Origin: Actinomycetota bacterium
Lineage (GTDB): Bacteria; Actinomycetota; Actinomycetes; S36-B12; CAIYMF01
DNA length: 46,638 nucleotides
Direction of reading: 5' to 3'
Assembly: GCA_009697815.1 (NCBI GenBank)
Contig: WLRQ01000014.1
Location: forward strand, 1 to 46,638
This document shows, piece by piece, positions 7,101 through 36,560 of this stretch (position 1 is its first letter; each line of letters opens with the position of its first letter). A program made the translations under genes and the position numbers. The notes beneath the pieces were generated by a model. It saw only the letters and a program-made list of their open reading frames with translations, ran no database searches and had not been told where the DNA came from.

Positions 7101-8090
7101 GTGGCCAAGAAGCAGAACTCCTCCCGCCCCGTCCTTTCCCGCTCAGGTGCGGGTGTCGACGTCGTTGACGGCGCTGACATCCCCGTCGTCGGTCTGCGCG
7201 AGCCATGCCCGTGCGGCAGCGGCCGCCGCTACAAGGCCTGTCACGGTCGGGGCATCGCCGATGCCGGCCAGACCCTCGTGCACCGACCGTTCGAGGGGCT
7301 TGAGTCCGAGGGTGACTGGGTCGCCCTCCGCGAGATCGTGCCAGCGGCCACGGCTCCGCTGACGCTCGCCCCGCAGTATGCGGCGCGCCTCGACGGCCGC
7401 ACCGTCACTCTTGCCACGGTGCTGCCGATGGCGTGGCCCGCCCTGGTACGCAAGGACGGCCAGATCCTCCTCGGTCTCCAGACCACGACAGGCAGCGGGG
7501 ATACCAGCCGCGACATTGCCGGGGCACTCCTGCGCGCGCTCGACGCGGAACTAGGAAGCCCGGTGCCACCGGTCCGTTCCGGTGACGGCCCGCGCCTGCA
7601 GGATCTCCTCGCGCCGGTGCCGCTCGAGGTCACGGTGCACGCAGGATTCGACTTCTGGATCGAGGGCACCGGCACTGCGTCGACCCCCGAGGTCTCGGCT
7701 TCCCTTGAGCGCGCGAATGCCTCGGTGGTCCCCACCGAACGGCTTCAGGGTGTGACGGCCGCCTACTGGTGCCGCATCGGGGCCAAGGAGCACCTGCGCT
7801 GGGTGCAGCCGTATGCCGAGGAGCCGCTGCTCGACGCATTGGCCCGGATGCATGCCCGGGGTCAGGACGGTCTCGGGGAGGGCACCCGGCTGATCGGCAC
7901 CTTCCGCGCCCACGGTTTGCTTGTTCCGGTGTGGGACCTCGTCACGGGCACCGAGGTGGCTGCCGTCGAGGAGTCCGCGCGGGAGTTCGCCGTTCGGCTC
8001 GAGGCGGCCATGGGGGACACGGGCGATCTCTCCGAGTCTGAGCGCCGCGCACGTGCCGGCCTCACCAATCGTCAGGTCACGCTGCGCTAG
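7101..8090 (+). CDS. SEC-C motif protein, DUF5926 family
   Basis: 329 residues starting at the GTG at 7101 (VAKKQNSSRPVLSRSG). Residues 35-48 are a SEC-C zinc-binding motif, PCPCGSGRRYKACHG, with Cys36, Cys38, Cys47 and His48. The rest (about 50-329) is the DUF5926 region found in actinobacteria, without a recognised enzymatic motif. The SEC-C motif is best known at the C-terminus of SecA, where it binds zinc and SecB or ribosomes; here it is N-terminal and the role is unknown. It ends before a strong hairpin shared with the convergent GDT1 gene. Confidence 0.82.
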   Translation: MAKKQNSSRPVLSRSGAGVDVVDGADIPVVGLREPCPCGSGRRYKACHGRGIADAGQTLVHRPFEGLESEGDWVALREIVPAATAPLTLAPQYAARLDGRTVTLATVLPMAWPALVRKDGQILLGLQTTTGSGDTSRDIAGALLRALDAELGSPVPPVRSGDGPRLQDLLAPVPLEVTVHAGFDFWIEGTGTASTPEVSASLERANASVVPTERLQGVTAAYWCRIGAKEHLRWVQPYAEEPLLDALARMHARGQDGLGEGTRLIGTFRAHGLLVPVWDLVTGTEVAAVEESAREFAVRLEAAMGDTGDLSESERRARAGLTNRQVTLR

Positions 8091-8261
8091 TCCCTGAGCG
8101 GACGTCTCGCTCACCGCGCGCCCGGTATCCGCTGTGCCCACCGGAGATCGCGTCACCGGGCGTGATTCCGGGACGCTCTCGGATCGTCAAGGTTGATTCA
8201 AGAACAGGCAATCTGCGCGTCAATCACTTGAGAGCGCCCACCCCGCGACCTACCGTGGAGG

Positions 8262-29683: not shown

Positions 29684-29860
29684 GTCGACCTCCTCGCGGC
29701 GATGGTGCGTGAAGGCCGAGCGGCCCTGCCGCCCCAGAGTGCCAGACTCGCGCTCCGGAGGCTCCCTTTGGAGCCACGAGCGGCCACGTGTCCGATTAGT
29801 CCTGCCGCGCGAGCGGAACCCACCGTCTCCCGCGAGATCGTCCCCTGTCAGGATCGAACC

Positions 29861-31183
29861 ATGACGACCGAAGACCTTGTCGCCCGCGATCTCGCGAGCG
29901 TCTGGCACCCGTTCACCCAGCACTCGCGGTGGGCAGATGACCGACCCCTCGTCATCGACCGTGCCGAGGGCATGTACCTCATCGACACCGACGGCAACCG
30001 CTACCTCGATGCGATCGCGAGCCTGTGGGTCAACGTCCACGGCCACGCCGTGCCAGAGATCGACGACGCGATCCGTCGTCAGCTTGGTCGTCTCGACCAC
30101 ACCACCTTCCTGGGCCTGACCCATGAGCCGGGCATCGTCCTCGCGGAGAAGCTCCTCGCAACGGCCCCCGGAGGCGCGGATCGACGTGCCACCCGGGTCT
30201 TCTACGCCGGCGACGGTGCCAGCGCCGTCGAGGCCGCGATCAAGATGGCATTCCAGGCCAAGGCCCAGAACGGCGAGGACCGCCCGCTTTACCTCCACGT
30301 GGCCGAGGGCTACCACGGCGACACCCTCGGGGCGGTCAGCGTCGGCGGGATCGAGTTGTTCCACCACACGTACCGGCCGATCCTTCTCGACACCGTGATG
30401 ATCTCCAGCCCGGGTGTGAGGAGTCCGGGCCAGAGTGCGGCGGATCGCGCCATCGAGGTTGTGGCTGAGGCGCGGGCTCTCATGGAGGTGCAGGGCCATC
30501 GCGTCTGCGCCGTCGTGGTTGAGCCGATGGTGCAGGCGGCCGGCGGGATGCTCACCCATGACGCCGAGTTCTTGCGCGGTATGCGCGCACTTGCTGATCA
30601 GCACGGCGCCTACCTCGTGGCCGACGAGGTCGCCACCGGGATCGGTCGCACCGGCACGATGTGGGCCGTTGAGCACGCCGGAGTCGTTCCCGACCTCATC
30701 ACGTGCGGCAAGGGCCTCACGGCGGGCTATCTCCCCCTCTCTGCGGTACTGGCCACCGAGGAGATCTACGAAGCCTTCCTTGGCACCTCCGACAGTGGCC
30801 GCACCTTCTTTCACGGCCACAGTTACACCGCGAACCCGTTGTGCGCGGCGGCGGCGATCGCCAACCTCGACCTCATGGCCGACCGCGACACGGTGGGACG
30901 GGCCGCACGTCTCGGCGAGCGGATCGGCGAACTCACCGCCGGCCTGGCCGCATACGACGGCGTCAGCGAGATCCGACGGATCGGCACGATGACGGGTATC
31001 GAGGTGCGCAGCGTCGGCGAGCGCACCGGGTTCGAGATCTGTCAGCGTGCGCGGGACCGGGGCGTGCTCATCCGTCCGCTCGGCGACGTTGTGGTGCTCA
31101 TGCCGCCGCTCGCGTTGGGTGATGACGACCTTGACCTCCTCGTCGGCACGGTGGAGACGTGTATTCGTGAGGTGGTGGGGTGA
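29861..31183 (+). CDS. bioA: Adenosylmethionine-8-amino-7-oxononanoate aminotransferase BioA
   Basis: 440 residues from ATG 29861, with AGGAT upstream. It is a class III PLP aminotransferase: WHPFTQHSRWADDRPLVIDR is the BioA-specific start, YAGDGASAVEAAIKMAFQ the phosphate-binding loop, VADEVATGIGRTGTMW the PLP-ring Asp, and ITCGKGLTAGYLPLSAV the Schiff-base lysine (Lys284). FFHGHSYTANPL is typical of BioA. It converts KAPA to DAPA with S-adenosylmethionine as amino donor. It is the first gene of the biotin operon; its stop overlaps the start of the P450-BioF gene by 4 bases. The 177 bases before it should hold the operon promoter; no clear repressor site is seen there. Confidence 0.96.
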   Translation: MTTEDLVARDLASVWHPFTQHSRWADDRPLVIDRAEGMYLIDTDGNRYLDAIASLWVNVHGHAVPEIDDAIRRQLGRLDHTTFLGLTHEPGIVLAEKLLATAPGGADRRATRVFYAGDGASAVEAAIKMAFQAKAQNGEDRPLYLHVAEGYHGDTLGAVSVGGIELFHHTYRPILLDTVMISSPGVRSPGQSAADRAIEVVAEARALMEVQGHRVCAVVVEPMVQAAGGMLTHDAEFLRGMRALADQHGAYLVADEVATGIGRTGTMWAVEHAGVVPDLITCGKGLTAGYLPLSAVLATEEIYEAFLGTSDSGRTFFHGHSYTANPLCAAAAIANLDLMADRDTVGRAARLGERIGELTAGLAAYDGVSEIRRIGTMTGIEVRSVGERTGFEICQRARDRGVLIRPLGDVVVLMPPLALGDDDLDLLVGTVETCIREVVG

Positions 31184-33489
31184 CCCCCGCCGCCTTGGAC
31201 GCATCCGACCCCGCGTTCGCGCGCGACCCGTTCCCGACCTACGCCGAGCTCCGAGCCCGTGGTCCCGTCGGTTGCGTGCCGCTGTCGAATGGCCGCGAGG
31301 CCTGGTTCGTCACCGGCCTTGCAGAGGCCCGATATGTCCTGGCCGACAAGCGTTTCTCGGCGGTGCGGCCAAGTTCGCTCGATAGCTCGAGTCCTCGGGG
31401 TGTGCTCGAGCGCCACATGCTCAACACCGATGCGCCCGAGCACACACGCCTCCGTCGGCTGGCGTCGCGGGCCTTCACCGAGGCGAGGATCGATGCGCTG
31501 GCGCCGCGCATCGAGGTGCTCGTCGATGCCCTCCTCGACGCCATCCCGACCACTGGGGTCGTCGACATCGTCTCCGCCTTCGGCTTCCCACTCCCGGTGC
31601 AGGTGATGTGTGAGGTCCTCGGCGTCCCTGAGGCCGACCGTCTTGCCCTGCGGCAGTGGACCTACACCGTCGCGAGCCCCACCGGGCCGGGCACCGACGA
31701 TGCCTGGGACGGCTTGCTCACCTACTTCACCGGGCTCATCGCTGCCAAGCGCGCCGATCCCACCGACGACGTGTTCAGCGATCTCGTGCACCTGACGGAT
31801 GACGAGGGGATGCTCACCGAGCAAGAGCTTGTCGCGATGGCGTTCCTGCTGCTGTTCGCTGGCTACGAGACGACGATGAATCTCGTCGGCTCGGCAGTGT
31901 TGAGCCTGCTGACGCACCCGGACCAACTGCGCGCACTCACCACTCCCGCGCTGTGGGATGTCGCGGTTGAGGAGCTTCTTCGGCACGGGTCGCCGCTGGA
32001 AGGAGCGACATGGCGATGGGCGACCACCGACGTCGAGGTCGCCGGTGTGGTCGTGCCCGAGGGTTCGTCGGTGCTGGTCGTACTCGGTGCCGCCAATCGT
32101 GACCCTGACCGGTTCGACGACCCGGATCTGCTCGACCTCACGCGGTCTCCGAACCCGCACCTTGCCTTCGGGTACGGCCCGCACTTCTGTATCGGCGGCA
32201 GGCTCGCACGCCTCGAGGCCACTATTGCCCTGGCGCGGCTGGTGGCCCGCTTCCCTCACGTTCGCCTCGTGGCCGATCCCGCCGGAATCGCTTGGCGCCC
32301 AGGACTTCTCGTGCGTGGTCCCATGCGCCTCGACGTCCGCCTCGACGACCCTCACGCGCACCTGCACTCCCATGCTGACGCCCGCCGCGCTGCCGGATTG
32401 CGTCGTCGGCTCACGGCCCGGCAGGCCGATGCCGTCGTGATCGACCTCGCGGGCAATGACTATCTCGGGCTCACGCGCGACCCACGCGTCATCGACGGCG
32501 CGGTGACGGCCGCGAGCACATGGGGCGGCGGTGCCACCGGCTCGCGGTTGGTCACCGGTTCCACGCAGGGCCACCACGATCTCGAGGACGCGCTTGCCGC
32601 CTTTGTCGGCGCCGAGGCCGGACTCGTCCTCTCGAGTGGTTATCTCGCGAACTTGGGCGCTGTCGCCGCGCTATCGGGGCCGGGCACACTCGTGATCAGC
32701 GAGGCGCAGAACCACGCATCCATCATCGACGCCTGCCGGCTCAGCCGCGCTGACGTCGTCGTGACCGAGCACCGCGATATCGCAGCTGTTGAGCTCGCAC
32801 TCGCCGGACGCACCCTCGAACGCGCCATTGTGGTCACGGATGCCGTGTTCTCCGTCGACGGCGATCTCGCGCCGCTCACCGAACTTGCCTACGCGTGCCG
32901 GCGCCATGGGGCGCTGCTGATCATCGACGAGGCGCACGCTCTCGGGGTCGTGGGCGATGGTGGCCGAGGGGCGACGTATGCCGCAGGGCTGTCGGGCGCG
33001 CCGGACATCGTGCTGACGGCGACCCTCTCCAAGGCGCTCGGGTCGCAGGGCGGTGTCGTGCTCGGATCGCGTGCCGTCATCGACCATCTCGTCGACACCG
33101 CGCGTCCGTTCATCTTCGACACCGGGCTCGCGCCGGCCGCGGTGGGCGCGGCACATTCCGCACTCGATGCCCTCGTCGCCGACCCGACGTTGCCCCTGCG
33201 GGCCCGTCAGCGCGCGCGGGATCTCGCGCGGGTTGCGCGATCTGCGGGTTGGACGGCCTCGGAGCCTGATGCCGCGGTCACCTCGATCCTGATCGGCGAC
33301 CCGACTCTCGCGGTGGCCGCCGCTGCCGCATGTCTCGCGCGCGGGGTCAGGGTCGGCTGTTTTCGTCCACCGTCCGTTCCCGACGCGATCTCGCGGCTTC
33401 GGCTCACAGCTCGCGCCGATCTCACCGAATCGGACATCGACACGATCGCGACGGTCCTGGCCGAGGTTCGCGCCGAGGTGCTCGCATGA
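31180..33489 (+). CDS. Cytochrome P450 - 8-amino-7-oxononanoate synthase fusion (BioI-like P450 :: BioF)
   Basis: One 769-residue frame from GTG 31180. Residues 1 to about 388 are a complete soluble bacterial P450: I-helix FAGYETT (Ala227-Thr232, acid-alcohol pair Glu230-Thr231), ExxR at Glu265-Arg268, and the haem loop [11 protein letters not shown] with Cys337. Residues about 390-769 are a complete Bio[36 protein letters not shown] (Asp583, His586) and [10 protein letters not shown] with the PLP lysine Lys618, then FIFDTGLAP. There is no Met or Val codon to start BioF alone at the junction, and the linker is about ten residues. BioF condenses pimeloyl-ACP or -CoA with alanine to KAPA. In Bacillus the separate P450 BioI makes pimeloyl-ACP by cleaving acyl-ACP. 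I infer a joined pimelate-forming and KAPA-forming enzyme. It needs a ferredoxin or flavodoxin partner, not present here. Confidence 0.93.
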
Positions 33490-34217
33490 GCATCCTGGTC
33501 ATCACGGGCACGGGCACCGATGTCGGTAAAACCGTTGTCACGGCTGCGATTGCGGCGCTCGCACGAGATCGCGGCTCCCGGGTCGCCGTCGTCAAGCCCG
33601 GGCAGACGGGTGTCGGTGTCGGCGAACCGGGTGACCTCGACGCTGTGCGGCGCCTTTCCCTGATCGATGATCTCCACGAGCATGTGCGCTACCCCGACCC
33701 GCTCGCACCAGCCGCCGCGGCGAGGGTGAGTGGATTGCCCTCCCTCGATCTCGCCACGTCGGTCGCCGCGATCCGCGCGTTGGGCGAGGATCACGAACTT
33801 GTGCTCGTCGAGGGCGCGGGCGGCCTGCTGGTGCGCTATGACGATGACGGCTCCACGATCGCCGACTGGGCACGGCTGCTCTCCGCCGACGTCCTGGTGG
33901 TGGCGCATCCGCAACTGGGCACTCTCAACTCGACCGCCCTCACTCTCGAGGCCCTCGCCCACCGAGGCCTTACTCTCGCGGGCGTGGTCCTGGGCTCGTG
34001 GCCGCGCGACCCTGATCTGGCCTCGCGGTGCAATATTCGCGACCTCGAGACCTTGGCCGCGCGACCTCTGTCGGGTGCTCTGGCCGACGGCGCCGGGGCC
34101 TTCGATCCGCTCGAATTCCTGCTCGCCGCCCGGGCAGGGCTGGAGCCGGCTCTTGGCGGCATCTTCGATGCGTCAGACTTCCGTAGAAAGTACGACCCCT
34201 TGGAGGGACACTCATGA
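33486..34217 (+). CDS. bioD: Dethiobiotin synthetase BioD
   Basis: 243 residues from ATG 33486, overlapping the previous stop by 4 bases (ATGA). The P-loop is [10 protein letters not shown] (Gly8-Thr16), followed by [10 protein letters not shown] and [11 protein letters not shown], the Mg/ATP and substrate elements. It closes the ureido ring of dethiobiotin from DAPA, CO2 and ATP. It ends in a 4-base overlap with bioB. Confidence 0.96.
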
Positions 34218-35272
34218 CCACCACCCACTCGACCGACACCGCTCCTGGCGGCGCCGACGACACCTCGTCGGCCAGCTCATTCGCGCTCCTGGCGGCCGCT
34301 CGCGAGCAGGTGCTCACCGGTGGCATCGGGCTCAGCGAGGCTCAGGTGCTCGAGGTGCTGCGTCTGCCCGACGACGCGCTGCCCGAGTTGCTGGCGCTCG
34401 CACACGAGGTGCGCATGCGTTGGTGCGGCCCCGAGGTCGAGGTTGAGGGGATCGTGTCGCTGAAGACCGGCGGCTGCCCCGAGGACTGCCACTTCTGCTC
34501 GCAGTCCGGGCTGTTCTCCTCGCCCGTTCGCGCCGCGTGGCTCGACATCCCGTCGTTGGTCAAGGCCGCAGTCGAGACTGCCGCCACGGGCGCGACCGAG
34601 TTCTGCATCGTCGCTGCCGTGCGCGGCCCCGACGAGCGACTCATGACGCAGATGCGCGAGGGTGTGGCCGCGATCCGCGAGGCGGTGGACATCAACGTCG
34701 CCGCGTCGCTCGGCATGCTCTCGCAGGAGCAGGTCGACGACCTCGCCGACATGGGCATTCACCGCTACAACCACAACCTCGAGACGTCGAAGTCCTACTT
34801 CCCGCAGGTGGTCACCACTCACACCTGGGAAGAGCGATGGGACACCCTCACCATGGTGCGCGAGGCGGGCATGGAGGTGTGCTGCGGCGGCATCCTCGGA
34901 ATGGGTGAAACCCTTGAGCAGCGGGCGGAATTTGCCAGCCAGCTTGCCGAGATCGCACCCCACGAGGTGCCGCTGAACTTCCTCAACCCTCGTCCCGGTA
35001 CCCCGCTCAGCGAGCAGACCGTGATGCCGGCAACCGATGCCCTTCGGGCGATCGCGGCGTTCCGCCTCGCGCTGCCGCGCACGATCCTGCGTTACGCGGG
35101 TGGCCGAGAGATCACCCTCGGCGACCTCGGTACGCGCGACGGGCTCCTCGGTGGAATCAACGCCGTGATCGTCGGCAACTACCTCACCACGCTCGGCCGC
35201 GCCGCCACCGATGACCTCGCGCTTCTCGGCGAGCTCTCGATGCCGGTGAAGGCCCTGAACGCCACGCTGTGA
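34214..35272 (+). CDS. bioB: Biotin synthase BioB
   Basis: 352 residues from ATG 34214. A 30-residue Ser/Thr/Asp-rich lead is followed by the radical-SAM barrel. The [4Fe-4S] motif is [13 protein letters not shown], with Cys88, Cys92 and Cys95. [24 protein letters not shown] and the conserved Arg of RYAGGREI near the end belong to the auxiliary cluster region. It inserts sulfur into dethiobiotin. It overlaps bioD and the next small gene by 4 bases each. Confidence 0.97.
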
Positions 35273-35499
35273 GCGGGGTGAGGGACGAGGTCACGCAGGT
35301 GGGCCAGGGCCCTTACTGCGTGCGTTGCGGAGATCCGATCGACGCCCACGAACACCTCAGTTGTCTCGACGCCCTGGTGCTCGAGCCGCCTCGTTACTGC
35401 GCGATCTGCCGTCGCCGGATGGTGGTGCAAATCGTGCCCTCTGGCTGGACTGCCCACTGCAGCGAGCATGGTGATCTTCACGGCGGCAACGCCGTCTAA
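35269..35499 (+). CDS. bsaP: Biotin synthase auxiliary protein BsaP
   Basis: 76 residues from GTG 35269, overlapping the bioB stop by 4 bases. It has six cysteines: YCVRC (17, 20), Cys32, YCAIC (44, 47) and Cys64, with EPPRYC and PSGWTAHC between. This is the small Cys-rich protein encoded after bioB in actinobacteria (Rv1590 in M. tuberculosis). It has been reported as an iron-sulfur auxiliary protein that mycobacterial biotin synthase needs to turn dethiobiotin into biotin. Position and pattern agree; assignment rests on recall of that family rather than a search. Confidence 0.85.
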
Positions 35500-35516: not shown

Positions 35517-36560
35517 TCAGTGGGCGAGTTCGATCAACGCCGAGGCTCGCGGCACGTAGGTGACCGAGACCGGCTCGAAGCCCGCCCGCGCCAGCAGCGT
35601 GTGCCCGTTGTGGTCTTCGCAGCCGGTCGGCTCGTTGACCTCGCCGAGGTCGAGGACGTCGTCTTGGCCCCACGGCCACACCTGGACGGCAGACGGGTTC
35701 AGGCCCTTCCACAGGTGACCGACGTAGTGCCTCGGCACGTTGTTCTGCGCCGCGGTCTTCGCGGGCATCGTGATGGGGATGTCGAATGACGCAGAGGTGA
35801 GGAATCGAGACACTGCCGCCAGCCCGTTGGCGGCCACGAGTCCCATTCCCTCGCGCAGGAACGGAACCGTTCCGAAGCGCTTCTTGGCCCGTCCTCGCAT
35901 GATGTTGCGCCCGTCCCATGCGAGATCGAAAGCGAACTCGCCCGCCTGATCGGACAGGACGCTTGAGACCGCCTTCGGGTGTTTCGGGGAGGCATGCATC
36001 TCCCGCCCCCACGAGATCGAGAGAGGACTGTCGATCCAGAGTGAGTGCAGGAACAGTGAGTCGCATACCGAGGGCCCGAAGTTCCCATACTGCAATGCCC
36101 AGGTGGCATCGACGAGTCCTCCCTCGCGGAAGGCCACCTGCCCGGGGCTCGAGTGGTTGACGTCGAAGCTCAGCACCACCTCGTTGTAGACCCCGCACAC
36201 GCTGTCGTGGATGACGTTGAACCAGATCGTGGCCATTGCCTTCGGGGCCCCGTCGCCGCGACGCTGCGCACCCACGGGGAAGACACCTTCATCGGCGAGC
36301 GCCTCGCTCACGACGTCCATGTCGCAGAAGCCTCGGATCAACCACGAGGTGTAGCTCAGGGCGTACCACTCGCGGTCAGTCGATAGCCCGTTCGACAAGG
36401 GCGCGGGATGGTAGGTGAACTGGTCGAACCAGGCCGCGCCCGCTATGGGGCGAGCGGGAGTCGCACCCCAGGCCGCGAGTTCGTTGCCCGTCTCACCTCG
36501 TCCGATGCGACTTTCGGGGATGCGCCCTGCTACTGGATCGACTGTCGGGTTGGGTTGCAC
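35517..36560 (-). CDS. Acetoacetate decarboxylase-like superfamily protein (tentative)
   Basis: 347 residues from GTG 36560. Features visible are WFNVIHDSVCGVYNEVVLSF in the middle, GREMHASPKHPKAVSSVLSD, then DGRNIMRGRAKKRFGTVPF. The Tyr-Asn-Glu-x-x strand followed by Gly-Arg-x-x-x-x-x-Pro-Lys resembles acetoacetate-decarboxylase-fold proteins, but the catalytic lysine cannot be placed with certainty. There is no signal peptide. It is convergent with the biotin operon, 17 bases after bsaP, and divergent from the pirin gene. Confidence 0.5.
   Translation of the reverse strand: MQPNPTVDPVAGRIPESRIGRGETGNELAAWGATPARPIAGAAWFDQFTYHPAPLSNGLSTDREWYALSYTSWLIRGFCDMDVVSEALADEGVFPVGAQRRGDGAPKAMATIWFNVIHDSVCGVYNEVVLSFDVNHSSPGQVAFREGGLVDATWALQYGNFGPSVCDSLFLHSLWIDSPLSISWGREMHASPKHPKAVSSVLSDQAGEFAFDLAWDGRNIMRGRAKKRFGTVPFLREGMGLVAANGLAAVSRFLTSASFDIPITMPAKTAAQNNVPRHYVGHLWKGLNPSAVQVWPWGQDDVLDLGEVNEPTGCEDHNGHTLLARAGFEPVSVTYVPRASALIELAH

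Follow-up and report, generated by a model that had tools for sequence, protein, structure and literature searches.

Does a cytochrome P450 that shares one polypeptide with 8-amino-7-oxononanoate (KAPA) synthase, BioF, supply that enzyme with its pimeloyl substrate? The question is raised by a fused P450::bioF gene (31180..33489, forward strand) in the biotin operon of an Actinomycetota bacterium (assembly GCA_009697815.1; 2.66 Mb in 112 contigs, 93.4% complete). The gene lies on contig WLRQ01000014.1 (C19), the 46,638 nucleotides of which were analysed as a whole and are called the window below; G and L numbers are our handles for genomes and loci. From sequence and gene context we put at roughly 0.55 the probability that the P450 domain turns fatty acyl groups into a pimeloyl thioester for the BioF joined to it. 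A P450 already known from a biotin operon is BioI of Bacillus, and the first-pass annotation of this DNA took it as established that BioI provides BioF with pimeloyl-acyl carrier protein (pimeloyl-ACP). Cleavage of acyl-ACP to pimeloyl-ACP by BioI is indeed reported in passages of a review (PMC11089781), but the same passages and those of a 2025 paper (PMC12915131) report that pimeloyl-ACP is no substrate for the BioF of B. subtilis and that the bacterium can do without bioI. For these two reasons BioI, the one biotin P450 studied so far, is a puzzle. With a P450 and BioF in one chain, the question behind it, whether such P450s feed biotin synthesis, can be tested in a single protein.

One open frame for a P450 and a BioF

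The gene is a single open frame of 769 codons with a GTG start, the end coordinate including the stop, and it overlaps the stop of bioA by 4 bases. Residues ~1-388 (31180..32343) form the P450 domain with its I-helix motif AGYETT at 227-232, ExxR at 265-268 (E265 and R268) and the haem ligand Cys337, and residues ~389-769 (32344..33489) form the BioF domain with Asp583, His586 and the pyridoxal phosphate lysine Lys618. Each catalytic residue named in the first-pass annotation is at its given position, and the open frame, Pfam and the solved relatives agree with its description of a complete P450 followed by a complete BioF. The Pfam p450 model (PF00067) matched the protein with 92.9 bits against a cut-off of 22.8, which places the domain among the P450s, and Aminotran_1_2 with 177.8 bits against 19.7. 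The best solved relative of residues 7-387 is PikC, and that of residues 391-765 is 3wy7, an 8-amino-7-oxononanoate synthase (E 1.6e-129) which we take to come from Mycobacterium. It may be noted that the NCBIfam bioF score of the fusion, 379.1 bits, is under the cut-off of 426.45; as the stand-alone operon BioFs of the congener G010 (378.8) and of G017, a genome from another family of the order (385.0), miss it likewise, the low score is not peculiar to the fusion. The BioF domain shares 74% identity with G010 BioF and is the sole BioF-family match found in its genome. Homology and the operon together suggest that this half makes KAPA.

The P450 domain reaches a normal C-terminus (...GPMRLDVRL), the same end point as that of the G017 P450, and the residues directly after it, from DP on, align with the N-terminal part of the G010 BioF, so that the P450 runs straight into BioF with almost no linker, as had been claimed. 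Such a join could also come from an assembly or consensus artefact in which a small indel error linked overlapping P450 and bioF genes. The remaining operon boundaries are 4-base overlaps, at which a small indel could join genes in this way; stops in the alternative frames at 32376 (frame +2) and 32438 (frame +1) would end the P450 after a frameshift, and a single assembly consensus stands behind the frame. Against this, the DPxAxL residues of the congener's BioF follow in frame right after the P450 C-terminus, a free BioF would have to start within the P450 end (ATG 32323 or GTG 32311), and the operon frames on both sides of the fusion are intact. With only ~6 bases between the conserved residues on the two sides of the junction, an error of the consensus there is unlikely, and among the explanations weighed here we regard an artefact as the least probable. 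Across the junction (32311..32400, forward strand) the in-frame codons from which a free BioF could start are GTG 32311, ATG 32323 and TTG 32398, with none between 32323 and 32398, and some free BioF may arise by internal initiation at them. The G010 BioF (L158:4755-6014) carries a ~35-residue N-terminal extension exactly where the P450 stands in the window. In Streptomyces sp. SW4 (L223, L231) a frameshift or a sequencing error divides the bioF match between two frames that meet at neighbouring bases.

The fusion was found once. In a pattern scan of genome contigs, which reaches close relatives only, no other P450-BioF fusion was present among the best 80 of 480 confirmed loci, and the one match over both domains proved to be two separate Metabacillus genes. 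Among the matches listed for 394 genomes of the class and 396 of the phylum (overlapping samples, two best candidates scored per genome, class matches listed down to ~1e-110), only the window's own spans residues 1-769. No report of a P450-BioF fusion was found among the papers listed from open-access full text, which is weak evidence of novelty since subscription papers are mostly outside it. Within these samples the literature and the genome scans agree with the first-pass annotation, which knew of no described BioI-BioF fusion, and a P450 and a BioF in one chain seem to be undescribed.

The P450 and the operon in related genomes

A family sample of 17 genomes, the window's own included, and an order sample of 166 were compared. 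A bioF match at 73-75% identity was found in three congeners, G005, G010 and G008, the copy in G008 being cut by a contig end. The biotin operon is patchy in the family, a bioF match above 70% identity being present in 4 of the 17 genomes when the window's own is counted. In G005 and G010 the series bioA-bioF-bioD-bioB is found at 73-85% identity, bioF following bioA without a P450 in between, and by eye the same divergent upstream gene adjoins the operon in these two genomes and in the window. The fused gene and the bioF of G010 have corresponding starts, each overlapping the end of bioA by 4 bases. From the operons of G005 and G010 we conclude that the P450 was either gained at the bioA-bioF boundary in the window lineage or lost in the congeners.

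A P450 match of E 1e-60 or better was present in 18 of the 166 order genomes (at most 11 candidates scored per genome). Beyond 1e-70 only the window and G017 are left, the next being G217 (41% identical, 1.5e-68). The G017 P450 is 58% identical to that of the window and keeps the oxygen-activation and haem motifs, as the window P450 does. It has a gene of its own, which diverges from bioA over a ~67-bp gap (in L154 the P450 starts at 8147 by alignment and the bioA frame at 8079 on the opposite strand, with 67 bases between). Both order genomes with this type of P450 thus have it at the biotin operon in differing layouts, as an in-operon fusion and as a divergent gene, and the tie between P450 and biotin operon proposed for the window extends to a second genome. 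In the class sample, relatives at about the same identity as the G017 P450 occur in G365, G400 and G379, and the contig scan added two from Streptomyces (L039 and L040), with which the former three group in the tree; we therefore take these three as probable Streptomyces. Linkage to a biotin operon was seen in 2 of the 7 members found of this P450 group.

In a tree of 48 P450s (46 selected from the fetched loci, B. subtilis BioI and PikC), the window and G017 P450s and the five Streptomyces-type P450s form one group with support 100/99, and the BioI proteins of B. subtilis and Metabacillus fall outside it. A clade of the four biotin-linked P450s, that is those of the window and G017 and the two Bacillales BioI, was tried and rejected by the approximately unbiased (AU) test (p-AU 9.4e-6); one of the seven-member group with the two BioI was rejected more weakly (p 0.0164). 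The groups for these tests were named after inspection of the tree, and the two BioI deviate from the rest in residue composition. The window and G017 P450s as sisters were not rejected (p 0.367), and support for the branch separating G017 off is 84/40. Judged by this phylogeny, the window P450 is from an actinobacterial lineage separate from Bacillus BioI. The name BioI given to it in the first-pass annotation is therefore dropped, and a supply of pimelate by this P450, if real, is probably a separate recruitment.

A P450 as the probable source of pimelate

We suggest that the gene product is a bifunctional enzyme. Its P450 domain would repeatedly oxidise a fatty acyl chain, one probably bound to ACP, and cleave it between C7 and C8 to a pimeloyl thioester, with O2 and with electrons that a redox partner encoded outside the operon would deliver; no such partner was seen among the genes of the operon. 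The BioF domain would then condense the pimeloyl thioester with alanine to KAPA, the fusion thereby joining the source of pimelate to its consumer. The whole course of events within one polypeptide, in which a P450 that is not BioI cuts ACP-bound fatty acyl chains and the BioF domain of the same chain receives the pimeloyl group, is put forward tentatively, at somewhat less than even odds. What we infer is the substrate with its cleavage and thioester product, as well as the supply of electrons and any channelling; for the pimelate role of the P450 the grounds are the fusion, the neighbour layout in G017 and two known partnerships of a P450 with a BioF, and not kinship with BioI. In favour is that the P450 is fused to the only BioF found in the genome, within a complete bioA-bioF-bioD-bioB-bsaP set. 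Of the all-in-one entry to biotin proposed in the first-pass annotation, what stands is the fusion in a biotin operon, joined now by a second biotin-linked P450; the descent from BioI and the weight put on missing bioC, bioH and bioW do not.

Among known systems, BioI (CYP107H1 in B. subtilis; bioI in Metabacillus, L043) is alike in being a P450 tied to a biotin operon, with a proposed oxidative supply of the pimelate chain, and unlike in being a separate gene from a different part of the tree that is reported as dispensable in B. subtilis. In Metabacillus the order is bioA-bioF-bioD-bioI (L043:3629-8066), with bioI downstream of bioD; a passage of PMC12915131 calls BioI unique to B. subtilis. 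The nearest precedent is MkpG with MkpD. A 2026 paper (PMC13336041) shows that alpha-methyl-KAPA formation in Streptomyces requires each of mkpC, mkpD (BioF-like) and mkpG (a P450), and proposes an oxidative cleavage by MkpG. Here too an actinobacterial P450 and a BioF-like enzyme are needed together, but they are two genes and serve secondary metabolism, which has an ACP and a ketosynthase for itself. In BioWF of Corynebacterium amycolatum and Desulfosporosinus orientis a pimelate-activating enzyme and BioF share one chain, with BioF C-terminal in C. amycolatum (passages of PMC9544090), but in place of a P450 the chain has a pimeloyl-CoA synthetase, which acts on free pimelate. BioE of Elizabethkingia and Chlamydia is a non-haem diiron oxygenase, unlike the haem P450 of the window.

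The mkp genes also give rise to another explanation, that the P450 oxidises a related acyl substrate and so leads to a modified KAPA or a biotin analogue, as in the biotin antimetabolite clusters of Streptomyces. Besides the need for MkpG and MkpD in alpha-methyl-KAPA formation, the same paper names a P450, AcdE, in the proposed acidomycin pathway (PMC13336041). A locus of S. avidinii (L242:7665-13161) holds a second BioF, 54.6% identical to the window BioF domain, with genes for an ACP, a ketosynthase, an AMP-ligase and a P450; from this gene content it is probably the published alpha-methyl-KAPA (mkp) cluster. However, the window BioF is the only one found in its genome, its domain is as close as 74% identity to a BioF from the ordinary biotin operon of a congener, and a Pfam scan of 8 proteins from the operon and its flanks showed no ACP or ketosynthase. 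We consider a modified product quite unlikely, and place it second among the rivals, before the artefact.

First among them is that the fusion is real and pimelate comes from an unrecognised route of the BioC/BioH type common to the congeners, the P450 being recent in the operon with an incidental or unrelated role. To our knowledge, the pimelate route of actinobacteria outside the mycobacteria is largely open. No protein in any of the 17 family genomes scored over the cut-off of the BioC or BioH models, weaker matches being present in all 17 (in G000 up to 52.6 bits for BioC and 66.9 for BioH), and BioW had no match of any strength in the 17. Among the control genomes (n=14), BioC was over cut-off in 1, BioH in 1, BioW in 2 and trans-aconitate methyltransferase (Tam) in 1. 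BioC was also below cut-off in nine further genomes, namely G017, three of the Streptomyces type and five order members without the P450; four of these five have a bioF match and the fifth, G131, has one outside the matches listed. The lack of a recognisable BioC, BioH or BioW in the genome counts in favour of the P450 as pimelate source, and the first-pass annotation had used the absence of these genes from the window so, but it was rejected as proof and is weak as evidence because the operon-bearing congeners without the P450, G005 and G010, equally have none over cut-off. Unrecognised versions are possible, as passages of PMC9302846 describe a Tam-type BioC and three unusual BioH isoenzymes in mycobacteria, which could escape curated models. 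The Tam model NF002463 gave no match over its cut-off of 297 in the 17 family genomes (best 238.9 in G004, 19.5 in G000), though it may miss Tam of the mycobacterial type.

Also in line with an incidental P450 are the operons of G005 and G010, kept at the same locus beside the same divergent gene without it, and the sister P450s that stand away from bio genes in Streptomyces-type genomes. On the other hand the same type of P450 lies beside the bio operon in another family (G017), the P450 motifs are intact, and Tam was not detected over cut-off. An incidental P450 is the main rival and is, on balance, unlikely.

Several observations weigh against a P450 that feeds BioF. The enzymatic roles are predicted from sequence and a single fused case is known. 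If G005 and G010 make biotin, they have another source of pimelate, which may operate here too. A P450 as such is not unusual in this host, as eight other contigs of the genome have P450 matches. No bio genes were found in the fetched flanks of the five Streptomyces-type P450s, and their surroundings differ from one another. The window P450 is 38% identical to Metabacillus BioI and among solved chains scores higher with PikC (319.9 bits) than with BioI (237.1 bits). Also, MkpG was considered as a close relative and rejected, the P450 at L242, likely MkpG, being only 26% identical. Should the P450 indeed supply pimelate to BioF, an oxidative supply of pimelate would have arisen separately once more, in addition to BioI and BioE, and the P450 would have to make a product that its BioF can use. 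Biotin synthesis would then have an oxygen-dependent entry in a lineage with no recognisable bioC, bioH or bioW, and the fusion would be a compact enzyme for biotin or aminoketone production.

The other genes of the operon

The operon reads bioA-[P450::bioF]-bioD-bioB-bsaP on the forward strand, consecutive genes overlapping by 4 bases. The bioA gene (29861..31183; TIGR00508, 481.1 bits, cut-off 405) is 84% identical to the G010 copy, and its ATG at 29861 was picked by likeness to the congener, the mechanical open reading frame starting at 29702. Downstream of the fusion lie bioD (33486..34217; TIGR00347, 116.3 bits, cut-off 83.3), with the start taken from the open reading frame, and bioB (34214..35272; TIGR00433, 353.7 bits, cut-off 225). 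A BioQ-like operator was searched for and discarded: the window has two matches with one mismatch each, both away from bioA, and 12 of 100 shuffles equalled this count. Inverted repeats upstream of bioA came to one 10-base palindrome in the window and none in the other two regions compared. Past the operon, a frame of 347 residues on the reverse strand (35517-36560) has zero Pfam matches.

Directly after bioB, and overlapping it by 4 bases, lies a gene absent from the first-pass annotation, bsaP (35269..35499), which encodes a biotin synthase auxiliary protein of 76 residues (NF052237, 90.4 bits, cut-off 39) without a Pfam match and completes a biotin operon of the actinobacterial bsaP type. 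By eye, short frames like bsaP also follow bioB in G017 (L154:3654-3857) and in G005 (L159), there within a longer frame, and a BioB-BsaP fusion is on record in a passage of PMC11099021.

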